A DNA stretch of 64,000 nucleotides from contig NZ_JACUUB010000005.1 of assembly GCF_014859525.1 (NCBI RefSeq), forward strand, positions 1 to 64,000. The letters run 5' to 3'. The first letter of the stretch is position 1. Each line of letters begins with the position of its first letter. The notes beneath the pieces are model-generated. The model was not told the DNA's origin. It did no database searches and worked only from the letters and a program-made list of their open reading frames with translations. Positions 40,793 through 44,204 of the stretch are shown here, piece by piece. The DNA comes from Marinobacter sp. GTDB lineage: Bacteria; Pseudomonadota; Gammaproteobacteria; Pseudomonadales; Oleiphilaceae. Made by a program: the position numbers and the translations under genes.

Positions 40793-40906
40793 GGGGGCTG
40801 CTGCGGGGCGGTGGTTCCGGGAGTGTGCGCAGCAGGGAAGCTGCGCTCAAGCCCCCATGGATGGGTTCACGGCGTCTCCCGGAACCAGCGCCCCGCAGCA
40901 GGCCCC
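40793..40906 (+). repeat. Long-stem twin-hairpin repeat, copy 1
   Basis: The arms 40798-40823 and 40876-40901 pair in 25 of 26 positions; GGGG/CCCC extends the stem outward. The 52-nt centre (40824-40875) folds into two hairpins with tips CAGGGAAG and CATGGATG. The centre matches copy 4 at 50 of 52 positions, while most of the stem does not. Confidence 0.85.
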
Positions 40907-41018
40907 GGGTGGCCGATCATATTATGCTGGCGATTTTCACCAAGAATAAGTCAGAAATGACAATTCCAACCAGTGTAGTGGTTGTGAGAGGCTAGGGCCA
41001 ATAAACAGGAGAGCCAGA

Positions 41019-42821
41019 ATGACCGACACCCTGATCGACCGCCGCGACCTCGAATTCCAACTGTACGAGGTTATGGACACCGAAACCCTCACCCAGCGTG
41101 AGCGTTTCAGCGAGCACAGCAAAGAAACCTTCGACGCTGTCATCGAAACCGCCGACAAAATGGCGAAAGAAAAATTCGCCAACCACAACAGCGCCGCCGA
41201 CAAAGACGAACCCAAGTTCGTCAATGGCCAGGTCGACATGCTCCCGGACGTCAAGAAAGCCTTCGACGCCTACGCCGAAGCCGGCTTCCTCGCTGGCCGC
41301 TACGATTACGATCTGGGCGGCATGCAACTACCGGAATCCGTCATGGCGGCCTGTAACGGCTTCTTCACCGCCGCCAACCCCGGCACCGCAGGCTATCCAT
41401 TCCTGACCACCGCCGCTGCCAACCTGATTCGCGTGTTCGGCAACGAGGAACAGAAAACCCGATTTTTGCCGCACATGCTCAGCGGCCGCTACAGCGGCAC
41501 CATGGCTCTGACTGAGCCCCATGCCGGCTCCAGCCTGGCCGACATCCGCACCTCCGCCACACCTTCAGACGACGGCCACTACCTGATCAAAGGCGCCAAA
41601 ATCTACATCTCCGGCGGCGAGCAGAGCATCACCGAAAACATCGTTCACATGGTGCTGGCCAAAATCAAAGGCGCACCGGCCGGGGTTAAAGGTATCTCCC
41701 TGTTCATCGTCCCGAAGTTCCACGTGGACGACAACGGCAACCCGGGCGAACGCAACGGCGTCAGCCTCGCCGGTCTGATCCATAAATTGGGCTACCGTGG
41801 CACCACCTCCACCGCCCTGAGCTTTGGCGACGACGCTCCCTGCCACGGCTATCTGGTGGGCGAGCCCCATCAAGGCCTGAAATACATGTTCCAGATGATG
41901 AACGAAGCCCGCATCGGGGTCGGTTTCGGCGCCGCCGTGATCGGCTACCGTGGTTACATGCACAGCCTGGAGTACGCCAAAGACCGCCTGCAGGGCCGCA
42001 AAGCCAGCGAAAAAGACCCGGAAAGCCCGCAAGTGCCCATCATCGACCACGCCGACGTGCGCCGAATGCTGCTGGCCCAGAAAGCCTACAGCGAAGGCGG
42101 CCTGGCCCTGTGCCTGTATGGCGCACGCCTGATGGACGAGCAGCACACCCACCCGGATGAGCAGAAGCGGATGGAAGCCGGCAAGCTGCTGGACCTGCTC
42201 ACGCCCGTGATCAAAGCCTGGCCTTCCGAATTTGGTCTCAAGGCTAACGACCTGGCAATCCAGGTCTATGGCGGCGCCGGCTACACCCGCGAATATCCGG
42301 TCGAACAATGCTGGCGTGACAACCGCCTGAACCCCATCCACGAGGGCACCAACGGCATCCAGGCGCTTGACCTGCTCGGTCGCAAAATCTGGCAGGACCA
42401 GAGCCACGGTCTGCAACTGTTGATGCAGGAAATGCAGGTCGACCTGCAAGCCGCCACCACCGACCGCTGCCAGCAGTGGGCGCTGTCTCTCAGCGAAACC
42501 CTGCAACAGGCCGTCAAAGTTACCCAGAGCCTGGGCAAATCCCTGATGGGCGGCGAAGTGGACAAAACCCTGGCCAACGCCAGCTGCTACCTGCACCTGT
42601 TCGGCCACATCATCGTCGCCTGGATGTGGTTGCGCCAGGCCAACGCGGCAGCCAATGCGTTGGCTTCTGCCAATAGCGACAGCGAACGCAACTTCTACCA
42701 GGGCAAACTCCAGGCCGCCCAGTACTTCTTCCACTGGGAGCTGCCGACCGTCGCCCAGGATCTGGTTTTGCTCCGGAATCAAGATGATACGTGCCTGAAC
42801 ATGAAGGCCGATTGGTTTTAG
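41019..42821 (+). CDS. Acyl-CoA dehydrogenase, 600-residue type
   Basis: This FAD enzyme makes the first alpha,beta-desaturation of acyl-CoAs. It is of the long form with an extra C-terminal helical domain (PF12806-like, residues about 470-590). Motifs are MALTEPHAGSSLADIRTSA, ALSFGDDAPCHGYLVGEPHQGLKYMFQMMNEARIGVG, and QVYGGAGYTREYPVEQCWRDNRLNPIHEGTNGIQALDLL with the likely catalytic Glu. AGGAG precedes the ATG. Third codon positions are strikingly C-rich (GCC, AAC, CTG) compared with earlier genes in the window, and the crotonase gene shares this. Structured repeats flank it on both sides. Confidence 0.9.
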   Translation: MTDTLIDRRDLEFQLYEVMDTETLTQRERFSEHSKETFDAVIETADKMAKEKFANHNSAADKDEPKFVNGQVDMLPDVKKAFDAYAEAGFLAGRYDYDLGGMQLPESVMAACNGFFTAANPGTAGYPFLTTAAANLIRVFGNEEQKTRFLPHMLSGRYSGTMALTEPHAGSSLADIRTSATPSDDGHYLIKGAKIYISGGEQSITENIVHMVLAKIKGAPAGVKGISLFIVPKFHVDDNGNPGERNGVSLAGLIHKLGYRGTTSTALSFGDDAPCHGYLVGEPHQGLKYMFQMMNEARIGVGFGAAVIGYRGYMHSLEYAKDRLQGRKASEKDPESPQVPIIDHADVRRMLLAQKAYSEGGLALCLYGARLMDEQHTHPDEQKRMEAGKLLDLLTPVIKAWPSEFGLKANDLAIQVYGGAGYTREYPVEQCWRDNRLNPIHEGTNGIQALDLLGRKIWQDQSHGLQLLMQEMQVDLQAATTDRCQQWALSLSETLQQAVKVTQSLGKSLMGGEVDKTLANASCYLHLFGHIIVAWMWLRQANAAANALASANSDSERNFYQGKLQAAQYFFHWELPTVAQDLVLLRNQDDTCLNMKADWF

Positions 42822-42862
42822 TTTCGGTGCTCTTCCGGCCCTAGCCTGCGAATATTGGTGAT

Positions 42863-42978
42863 GGCGCAATCGGCTGGGAGCCCTTCCAGGGACACGCTAC
42901 GAGCACGTCCCTGTGCGCTCGGCTGTGGCCATCCATGGCCACAGACGGTCCCTGGAAGGGCTCCCAGCCGCTCGCGCC
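42863..42978 (-). repeat. Long-stem twin-hairpin repeat, copy 2 (inverted)
   Basis: The arms 42871-42892 and 42949-42970 form a perfect 22-bp stem, and GCGC/GCGC pairs again outside a small internal loop. Read on the minus strand the 56-nt centre gives two hairpins with tips CATGGATG and CAGGGACG, related to copy 3. It lies in the 403-bp gap after the acyl-CoA dehydrogenase. Confidence 0.85.
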
Positions 42979-43063
42979 CAGGCAATGTGCTGGCCGCCGG
43001 TCGTAGAATCCTTAGGGGACGGGAGAGCAAGTTTTTTTGAACGGTATTTCTGCATAAGTCCGA

Positions 43064-43178
43064 GCATGGGCAATGGGGAGGTCTTTCCAGGACCGTTGAG
43101 GGCCATGGACGGCCCGAAACGAGCCTACAGGGACGTACTCGTGGGCGTGTCCTGGAAAGACCTCCCCGTTGACCATGC
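43064..43178 (+). repeat. Long-stem twin-hairpin repeat, copy 3
   Basis: The arms 43064-43093 and 43149-43178 form a 30-position stem with one mismatch and one G-T pair. The 55-nt centre (43094-43148) gives hairpins with tips CATGGACG and CAGGGACG. It ends 46 bp before the crotonase gene, and the remaining bases of this gap show nothing else. Confidence 0.85.
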
Positions 43179-43224
43179 CTGCACCCACATAGACAGGCTA
43201 GGGCCGTATTAAGAGGAAAAGTGC

Positions 43225-44004
43225 ATGTCACTGGTAAACATAGAAAAACAAGGCCACATCCTGCTGATCGGCCTGAACCGCCCGGAAAAAATGAACGCCA
43301 TGAACCGGGCCATGTACCACGAAATCGCCGCAGCTTACTATCAACTCCAGAACGACCCGGAACTGCGCGTGGCCGTGATGTACGCCAACGGCGACCACTT
43401 CACCAGCGGCCTGCAACTGGATGACTGGGCCGGCGTATTCGCCAACGGTAAAGGCATCGAGCCCGGCGACGGCGAACTCGACCCCTTCGACATCACTGGT
43501 GACAGCCTCACCAAACCCGTCGTCTTCGCCGCTCAGGGCATCTGCTTCACCTGCGGTGTCGAAATGATGCTCAATACCGACATCCGCGTAGCCGCCAAAG
43601 GTACCCGCTTCGCCCAGCTGGAAGTCAAACGTGGCATCTTCGCCTGCGGCGGCGCCACTATCCGCCTGCAGCGGGAAATCGGCTGGGGCAACGCCCAGCG
43701 TTACCTGCTCACCGGCGACGAATGGACCGCCGAACAAGCCTATCAATGGGGCCTGATTCAGGAGCTCGTTGAGCCCGGCGAACAGCTCAGCAAAGCCCTG
43801 GAAATTGCCGAGAAAATCGCCAAAGCCGCACCTCTGGGCGTTCAAGGCAGCCTGAAGTCGTCAAAAATCGCCGTCAGCGAAGGCCAGGAAGCCGCCAAGC
43901 AGAGCCTGTTCCCGGATCTTCGTCCGGTGATGGCCAGTGAAGACGTCAAAGAAGGGATTCAGTCGTTTCTGGAAAGAAGAGAGGCGGTGTTCAAAGGAAA
44001 GTAG
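43225..44004 (+). CDS. Enoyl-CoA hydratase/isomerase (crotonase) family protein
   Basis: The 259-residue protein has the crotonase fold: GHILLIGLNRPEKMNAMNRAM, the oxyanion loop ANGDHFTSGLQLDDWAG, and AQGICFTCGVEMMLNTDIRVAAKGTRFAQLEVKRGIFACGGA. E133 aligns with the first catalytic Glu of classical hydratase (Glu144 in rat). The second (Glu164) is replaced by R159 in NAQRYLLTGDEW. It may therefore be an isomerase, hydrolase or other crotonase type. AAGAGG precedes the ATG. Codon use matches the neighbouring acyl-CoA dehydrogenase. Confidence 0.85.
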   Translation: MSLVNIEKQGHILLIGLNRPEKMNAMNRAMYHEIAAAYYQLQNDPELRVAVMYANGDHFTSGLQLDDWAGVFANGKGIEPGDGELDPFDITGDSLTKPVVFAAQGICFTCGVEMMLNTDIRVAAKGTRFAQLEVKRGIFACGGATIRLQREIGWGNAQRYLLTGDEWTAEQAYQWGLIQELVEPGEQLSKALEIAEKIAKAAPLGVQGSLKSSKIAVSEGQEAAKQSLFPDLRPVMASEDVKEGIQSFLERREAVFKGK

Positions 44005-44110
44005 AGGGCAGCACAGTCCGAATGCCGTGGTAGGTGCGGCGGTCTGTAGACTTTGCTGCTGGCTTCAGACGCGTGCAGCTGACTATTTCAGCGCGGCTCG
44101 AAGCGGACGG

Positions 44111-44204
44111 CCGGGGAACCCCTCCCGGGAGTGTGCGCAGCAGGGATGCTGCGCTCAAGCCCCCAGGGATGGGTTCACGGCGTCTCCCGGGAGGGGTTCC
44201 CCGG
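44111..44204 (+). repeat. Long-stem twin-hairpin repeat, copy 4
   Basis: The arms 44111-44131 and 44184-44204 form a perfect 21-bp stem. The 52-nt centre (44132-44183) has hairpin tips CAGGGATG and CAGGGATG. It lies between the convergent crotonase and alkB genes, where it could also act as a terminator, although no T-tract follows. Confidence 0.85.

Follow-up and report, generated by a model that had tools for sequence, protein, structure and literature searches.

The DNA analysed here comprises 64,000 nucleotides (nt) of Marinobacter sp. (contig NZ_JACUUB010000005.1, positions 1 to 64,000 of the forward strand; hereafter the window) and contains four palindromic elements, each consisting of a long stem that carries a twin-hairpin head. 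The four elements occupy three gaps among genes assigned by Pfam to an AraC-type regulator, an acyl-CoA dehydrogenase, an enoyl-CoA hydratase, and a fatty acid desaturase. Copy 1 (40793-40906, plus strand) has the AraC-type regulator gene (minus strand) on one side and the acyl-CoA dehydrogenase gene (plus strand) on the other, and its arms (40793-40823 and 40876-40906; 31 nt, 94% complementary) enclose a centre of 52 nt. Copies 2 and 3 form a back-to-back pair separated by an 85-nt spacer (42979-43063). The left half, copy 2 (42863-42978, minus strand), possesses arms of 31 nt (42863-42893 and 42948-42978; 94%) and a 54-nt centre, and the right half, copy 3 (43064-43178, plus strand), possesses arms of 30 nt (43064-43093 and 43149-43178; 93%) and a 55-nt centre. 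Copy 4 (44103-44212, plus strand) lies with the enoyl-CoA hydratase gene (plus strand) on one side and the fatty acid desaturase gene (minus strand) on the other, with arms of 29 nt (44103-44131 and 44184-44212; 90%) around a 52-nt centre. These elements are real and not products of chance. Their RNA folding z-scores were -7.6, -11.6, -10.9, and -8.6 for copies 1 to 4, none of 200 shuffles of each folded as well, and the double loop motif described below occurs four times in the window on both strands together, once per element.

The original prediction, made from the letters of the window, had described four elements with long near-perfect stems. All four were recovered with centres of 52-55 nt, copy 4 being slightly larger than it had proposed. 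Its count of 50 identical bases among the 52 centre positions of copies 1 and 4 was correct; the stems of these two copies do differ, but the part in common is the innermost 7 base pairs (bp; CCGGGAG) and not only GGGAG/CTCCC. Copies 2 and 3 had been described as a second subtype in opposite orientation; copies 1, 3, and 4 share their sense strand (plus) and only copy 2 is reversed. The loop sequences, on which the prediction had not remarked, proved to be the most informative feature.

We built a covariance model, R1, from 14 copies of the window's genome and scored with it the best 150 of 1448 first-look candidates in that genome, with 150 likewise scored for two relatives, G005 and G013, and for S. 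maltophilia D457. The covariance search had been set beforehand as the test that could refute a structured family, and it did not do so: at least 67 end-to-end matches were found at E<=1e-15 in the 3.23-Mb genome of the window. The R1 rows there numbered 73, the others being one truncated copy, three with an interruption, and two antisense duplicates. Matches at E<=1e-10 were noted in 60 of 61 Marinobacter genomes (own included), and, with the best 65 candidates scored per genome, 37 of the 61 held at least 50 elements. On the same scoring, some genomes were element-poor, with none in G061, three each in G012, G020, and G039, and six each in G004 and G062. At least 71 elements were found in G005, and at least 101 R1 rows at E<=0.001 in S. 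maltophilia D457. A pattern scan of named genomes gave at least 120 stretches. The 80 loci listed came from Marinobacter, Halomonas and relatives, Stenotrophomonas, Oceanisphaera, Rheinheimera, Saccharospirillum, Microbulbifer, and others, and 78 of them carried an R1 match at E<=0.01, the exceptions being one Idiomarina and one Lachnospiraceae locus. A 30-base exact core pattern of copies 1 and 4 was not found in viral contigs. The position of the elements is mostly intergenic, with only 18 of 210 inside a predicted gene. In the parts of the open-access literature (PMC) that our search covered, we came across no description of the present repeats from Marinobacter, nor of any dispersed repeats linked to CsrA.

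The presence and absence of elements between species is real, so that gain and loss occur. Full counterparts of copy 1 at the same place and on the same strand were found in 5 of 15 relatives, and copy 4 has counterparts at the same place in G001, G002, and G009, that of G002 being another subtype. Copies 2 and 3 have counterparts at the same place in G013 and G005, respectively; G013 retains only the left copy and G005 only the right one. In three element-free relatives, the aligned gene ends at this gap stand 3 or 21 bp apart, with no palindrome there. The suggestion that a mobile palindrome copies itself into other palindromes was thus not borne out, and paralogues have mainly the core and inner stem in common.

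The centre of each element folds into two hairpins whose loops read CANGGANG on one strand, the GGA strand. In the window these motifs lie at 40833-40840 and 40856-40863 (copy 1, plus), 42930-42937 and 42906-42913 (copy 2, minus), 43104-43111 and 43128-43135 (copy 3, plus), and 44141-44148 and 44164-44171 (copy 4, plus). Loop counts, and the mismatch counts given further below, cover rows of at least 85 nt, those for G000, G005, and G013 being taken from R1. Without any filtering for the motif, G005 and G013 together gave 133 distinct copies, of which 132 had both loops intact. The window's genome, likewise unfiltered, gave 69 copies (70 rows, of which one duplicates another on the antisense strand), and both loops were intact in 65; of the remaining four, one has a point change, one lacks half a hairpin, and two carry an insertion in loop B. 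The first N of the motif can be any base and the second is mostly T or C. A pyrimidine (T or C) stood at the first N in 76 of the 134 loops counted in the window's genome and in 203 of 267 in G005 and G013; otherwise it was often G or A. In all 134 distinct rows of G005 and G013, the 5' C of the motif pairs with its 3' G in both hairpins, and the two motifs stand 23-25 nt apart, start to start. The loops are the most conserved part of the element, while the sequence of the stem seems free. In Stenotrophomonas, both loops fit CANGGANG in 30 of 31 copies; this set was partly picked by a pattern that itself holds the loop motif, so that loop counts in these and other pattern-picked copies are biased.

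The elements agree with CsrA/RsmA sites in carrying CANGGANG, with ANGGAN in a hairpin loop, and in the spacing of two such sites within 10-63 nt. The reported CsrA/RsmA consensus is 5'-A/UCANGGANGU/A (PMC6849547), and the two N positions of the elements are variable as they are in that consensus. An ANGGAN hexaloop has been described for RsmE, selection in vitro by SELEX gave RUACARGGAUGU, and CsrA is described as bridging two sites separated by 10-63 nt, most favourably by more than 18 nt (PMC7652899). The spacing found here could let one CsrA dimer hold both loops of an element.

As a separate observation, hairpin B is interrupted in four copies by an insert that in each case follows CACATGG and abolishes the second GGA loop (G000 C11 604-745, C38 27170-27266 [L108], and C151 43-141 [L060]; G005 L326 4105-4290). 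The insert is approximately 80 nt where both of its sides are seen and has small hairpins of its own; it could represent a mobile element nested in the repeat or mark a separate subtype.

We assessed how the long stem changes among copies. Across 134 distinct rows of G005 and G013, 98.8% of long-stem cells were paired and 23 of 24 pairs had changed on both sides, so the arms are not unpaired, the outcome that had been named as the alternative refutation. The covariation score of the whole structure was 0.662, compared to 0.162 for shuffles and 0.085-0.139 when partners were slid by 1-3 columns. Together with the copies within the genome and the genus-wide matches, this strongly supports the predicted structured family with covarying stems. 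The stems measured approximately 20-38 bp. At the sites of the window, orthologues showed 213 paired double changes versus 23 G.U, 25 single unpaired, and 9 double unpaired changes, in pairwise and non-independent comparisons with five further genomes (copy 1), G013 (copy 2), G005 (copy 3), and three genomes (copy 4).

Between G005 and G013, 54 orthologous elements were compared over 24 bp of stem, on which their classes rest: 27 had changed in 0-2 pairs, 8 in 3-6, and 19 in 7-13. In the last class the 45-nt near flanks were unrelated (mean identity 0.50, versus 0.92 where stems are identical), with outer flanks at approximately 0.92 and centres at 0.90. The loss of near flanks where outer flanks and centres are kept indicates that a block of stem plus near flank was replaced or turned over in these 19 of 54 orthologues. 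Copying of such stems from another existing copy was considered and rejected, since only 1 of 38 replaced stems resembled a stem elsewhere in the other species. A paralogue with at least 12 of 14 outer-arm bases in common was found for 10 of 71 elements in G005 and none of 70 in G013, and the five aligned pairs of this kind did not have their flanks in common. Among paralogues of the window's genome it was mainly the core and inner stem that were alike; in some alignments, 76-80% identity continued for 30-50 nt of the 3' flank, the site of a weak motif described below.

The 35 less-changed sites showed 33 paired double changes, 14 of which need a transversion, with 14 G.U, 8 single unpaired, and no double unpaired changes. 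At the near-flank divergence of 0.174, approximately 242 singles and 25 doubles of any kind would be expected without constraint, and singles were therefore depleted about tenfold. The 14 transversion-type double changes make a stepwise route through G.U insufficient, and template switching that rewrites both arms would fit; hairpins have been suggested to arise and persist through this process (PMC8794818).

If the long stems changed by a strand-symmetric DNA process, G.T and A.C mismatches should be equally numerous in them, as should G.A and C.T, and G.G and C.C. Read on the GGA strand, G.U outnumbered A.C by 76:10 in G005 and G013, 30:9 in the window's genome, and 22:7 in Stenotrophomonas (p = 1e-13, 0.001, and 0.008, values that are only nominal because related copies are not independent). 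G.A exceeded C.T by 11:5 in the window's genome, 20:7 in G005 and G013, and 10:8 in Stenotrophomonas, and G.G exceeded C.C by 7:1, 6:0, and 7:3, respectively. A wider set of 177 elements gave 142:61 for G.U versus A.C, and the bias was also present in the 36 single copies antisense to both neighbouring genes (21:5). These asymmetric mismatches suggest that one folded strand, RNA or single-stranded DNA, is under selection, and they count against a purely symmetric explanation such as a cruciform or neutral template switching alone. The prediction that structure is under selection thus stands in a narrower form, confined to the GGA-bearing strand, and its option of a symmetric DNA cruciform, which does not predict the asymmetry, is disfavoured.

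The arrangement of neighbouring copies was uniform. All 25 neighbouring pairs less than 300 nt apart, centre to centre, in three Marinobacter genomes were back to back (-,+), as were all 33 pairs with starts less than 500 nt apart in S. maltophilia D457. With this geometry, a transcript entering from either side would end in one sense copy. The spacers of the pairs printed were 34-199 nt, and no common sequence was seen by eye among these unaligned spacers. Orthologous single copies had the same orientation in 38 cases and the opposite in 7, and the latter may be survivors of ancestral back-to-back pairs. One back-to-back pair (G005 L314 13162+/4363- and G013 L296 14985+/4339-) appears to have been inverted whole between the species, with 5 and 4 changed stem pairs when compared crosswise versus 13 and 10 in parallel. 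Some spacers of Stenotrophomonas pairs (L385, L386, L388) hold another short, GGTGTCGACCTTGGTCGACACC-like palindrome, which we take to be perhaps the SMAG repeats of Stenotrophomonas.

We consider it most likely that this is a high-copy, dispersed, and strand-asymmetric family of TwoAYGGAY-like twin hairpins that would bind CsrA. The anatomy, copy number, loop invariance, strand-asymmetric constraint, and pair geometry are properties of the sequences, and from them we infer transcription of the GGA strand, CsrA binding, and a sponge action. Specifically, we assign a probability of roughly 0.6 to the elements being structured-RNA modules with twin CsrA/RsmA hexaloops that serve as a distributed CsrA decoy or local anchor in intergenic transcripts. 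The stem would display two hairpins whose ANGGAN hexaloops, closed by C-G, match consensus CsrA/RsmA sites, and one CsrA dimer would bridge both hairpins of an element. Carried in transcripts that cross intergenic regions, the elements would act as decoys distributed along the chromosome or as anchors for CsrA at their own locus. The stem sequence would be free provided that pairing holds, with both arms changing together; pairing would be kept by selection against unpaired states, probably combined with template-switch events that rewrite both arms at once, and whole-element turnover would add to the change. A more tentative extension is a self-spreading CsrA sponge distributed over at least two genera, with approximately 60-100 twin-site traps per chromosome in place of one or two genes of the CsrB type, dimers that offer a sense trap from either side, and stems rewritten copy by copy in both arms, whereby the copies would remain functional and yet nearly all differ. 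If the elements bind CsrA, they may outnumber dedicated sponge RNAs and would have to enter every model of CsrA control in these bacteria, and a dispersed repeat that spreads in connection with a host regulator would also be unusual. The stems additionally offer a natural experiment on long RNA helices that stay paired while their sequence changes: since each genome has approximately 70 paralogous helices and two species share 54 orthologues, compensatory selection and template-switch rewriting can be compared directly.

Several observations weigh against a CsrA-binding RNA. The csrA gene was present in 23 of 23 genomes scanned, own included, which accords with CsrA binding, but it is also found in the element-poor G004 and G012, so that its presence does not discriminate. 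No enrichment of sigma-70-like promoters was found 5' of 135 elements (mean score 2.96, compared to 2.90 on the 3' side and 3.34 for shuffled sequence). Gene orientation was obtained from a codon-usage open reading frame caller, with the 18 of 210 elements placed inside genes excluded, and the orientation of elements to genes was nearly random. The 127 single copies with both neighbours called included 52 antisense and 75 sense to the upstream gene (p = 0.05), and 36 of the 127 were antisense to both neighbours; such frequent antisense placement means that co-transcription with a neighbour is not guaranteed. The mismatch p-values are nominal, as stated, A.A versus T.T leans the opposite way with small counts (0:1 in the window's genome, 1:3 in G005 and G013, and 0:1 in Stenotrophomonas), and the mismatch asymmetry would follow equally from selection on single-stranded DNA. 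A dedicated sense orientation to the upstream gene was considered and set aside, the excess being slight and a rougher caller giving 32 versus 31. With regard to csrA itself, G008 had three matches, while the other 15 same-genus genomes scanned had one each.

The alternative that survives best, though we regard it as unlikely, is a non-autonomous DNA palindrome of the REP/TIR type, in which the GGA strand would form a single-stranded DNA hairpin for an HUH/Y1 transposase and the loop would be the transposase site. The high copy number, the mostly intergenic position, the range from 0 to 71 copies per genome, and presence or absence between species with neighbours kept are all expected of a mobile palindrome, as are the near-random orientation to genes and the back-to-back dimers, which resemble those of REP families (PMC3733652); single-stranded DNA also predicts the strand-specific mismatch asymmetry. 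A linked transposase, however, was absent from the places where it was sought. The genus has 67 Y1_Tnp matches, and the 30 of these loci that were scanned (approximately 1.5 kb on each side) contained no element. Of five Y1_Tnp places in S. maltophilia D457, not one lay within 5 kb of any of the 101 element rows, and the double motif was absent from all five loci. G005 had no Y1_Tnp match at E<=1e-6 despite its richness in elements, whereas G004 had 16 matches and six elements, and the only Y1_Tnp of the window's genome is on a contig without an element row. The pattern of a Y1 (IS200/IS605-like) transposase flanked by repeats, as in REP/RAYT or TIR/TIRYT systems, was not found in the loci scanned, and no REP-type transposase adjoined any element in the loci examined. 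Wide pairs approximately 620-720 nt apart were also considered as enclosing a transposase, and this was rejected when the four enclosed regions were found to hold other open reading frames; some of these appear to encode PilZ-, OsmC-, and DUF1415-type proteins.

A messenger 3' or intergenic structure acting as stabiliser, processing site, or attenuator, which would depend on the long stem and in which the GGA loops would be a by-product or a target of some other protein, appears improbable. The very stable stems and intergenic location would suit it, as would the finding that single copies are scarce in gaps between divergent genes (16 of 127 copies, versus 68 of the 252 gaps over 100 nt in these loci) and more frequent in convergent gaps (35 of 127, versus 48 of 252). 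In such a structure, however, the loops would not be expected to be the most conserved part and the stem sequence free. Element orientation was also about even in tandem gene pairs (40 versus 36), and the T-run of an intrinsic terminator was not found after the stem among 135 elements, where the commonest base is C first and then mostly A. Least probable is that functionless palindromes are held paired by mutation alone, through replication template switching that copies arm onto arm, an account favoured by the paired double changes at the 35 orthologous sites (33, with 14 of transversion type, versus 14 G.U and 8 unpaired singles) and by the proposal of template switching as maker and keeper of hairpins (PMC8794818), but which leaves both the conserved loops and the strand asymmetry of the residual mismatches unexplained.

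Returning to the TwoAYGGAY-like, CsrA-binding reading, we compared the elements to named families. No Rfam family reached its gathering score in the window. The statement in the original prediction that no named family could be matched needs amending, since TwoAYGGAY (RF01731) aligns full length with copy 3 (match at 43055-43187) at 35.2 bits, below its cut-off of 43, and scores above that cut-off at two other places in the genome. Copy 3 was its sole match in the window, with none for copies 1, 2, and 4 among the matches listed. The window's genome had 27 places at E<=0.1, 25 of them below the cut-off; at least one place was found in each of 25 same-genus genomes (own included) and none in 14 control genomes, and the cut-off was exceeded in 8 of 38 genomes. 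All four copies have the layout of this family, two same-strand hairpins over a basal stem with [C]AYGGAY[G]-type loops. The loops here are ANGGAN with a first N that is often not Y, so strict AYGGAY is satisfied only in part, and since the window copies miss the curated 43-bit cut-off they are filed as TwoAYGGAY-like and not as members. TwoAYGGAY has been listed for the human gut, gammaproteobacteria, and Clostridiales (PMC2864571) and its binding of CsrA has been proposed but not validated (PMC4333381). One of its stems is described as containing two tandem G.A (PMC4333381), and by our reading approximately half of the present copies have G.A, G.G, or A.G mismatches in hairpin A. The high copy number, back-to-back dimers, and stem turnover noted here do not appear in the consulted parts of its published accounts.

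Multiple GGA hairpin loops that would titrate CsrA are likewise a feature of CsrB/CsrC, RsmX/Y/Z, and Aln1a-c of Alteromonas (PMC5864184). Those RNAs come from one to a few dedicated, promoter-driven genes with many sites each, unlike the two sites per unit, dozens of dispersed units, and lack of an own-promoter signal in the present elements. REP/BIME, GTAG/CGTC repeats, REPINs, RAYT, and TIRYT systems share dispersed intergenic palindromes that are often dimers, and in S. maltophilia HH dimers and self-complementary TIRs, mostly close together, have been described (PMC3733652). The present elements differ in being much longer, in the twin-hairpin head and variable stem, and in lacking a linked Y1 transposase in the loci examined. 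The S. maltophilia 1152 TIRs (PMC3733652) were compared by description, and the Stenotrophomonas copies could be identical to them.

The flanks contain a weak motif, with log-likelihoods of 132 versus 77 for shuffled sequence on the left and 195 versus 99 on the right, and the 3' flank is A-rich over 40 nt. On the sense strand, approximately ACTCCCAAAGTYNG precedes the stem and CNCACTCCAAANCCNGNAGGCTAGG follows it, and a direct repeat of ACTCCAAAG was seen on both sides, for example at 43179-43206 of the window.

Yersinia YPAL and ERIC are also long dispersed palindromes, known from enterobacteria and Vibrio with model lengths of 103-168 (PMC2267715), and were compared by description only. Ysr224 was the only Yersinia small RNA model of Rfam among the matches listed, with 17.8, 24.3, and 26.5 bits versus a cut-off of 70. 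Its matches (40820-40920, 42848-42950, and 44128-44233) fall on three elements, on the strand opposite to GGA. The Ysr224 consensus resembles the reverse complement of such an element, so this model could derive from a related repeat read on its opposite strand.

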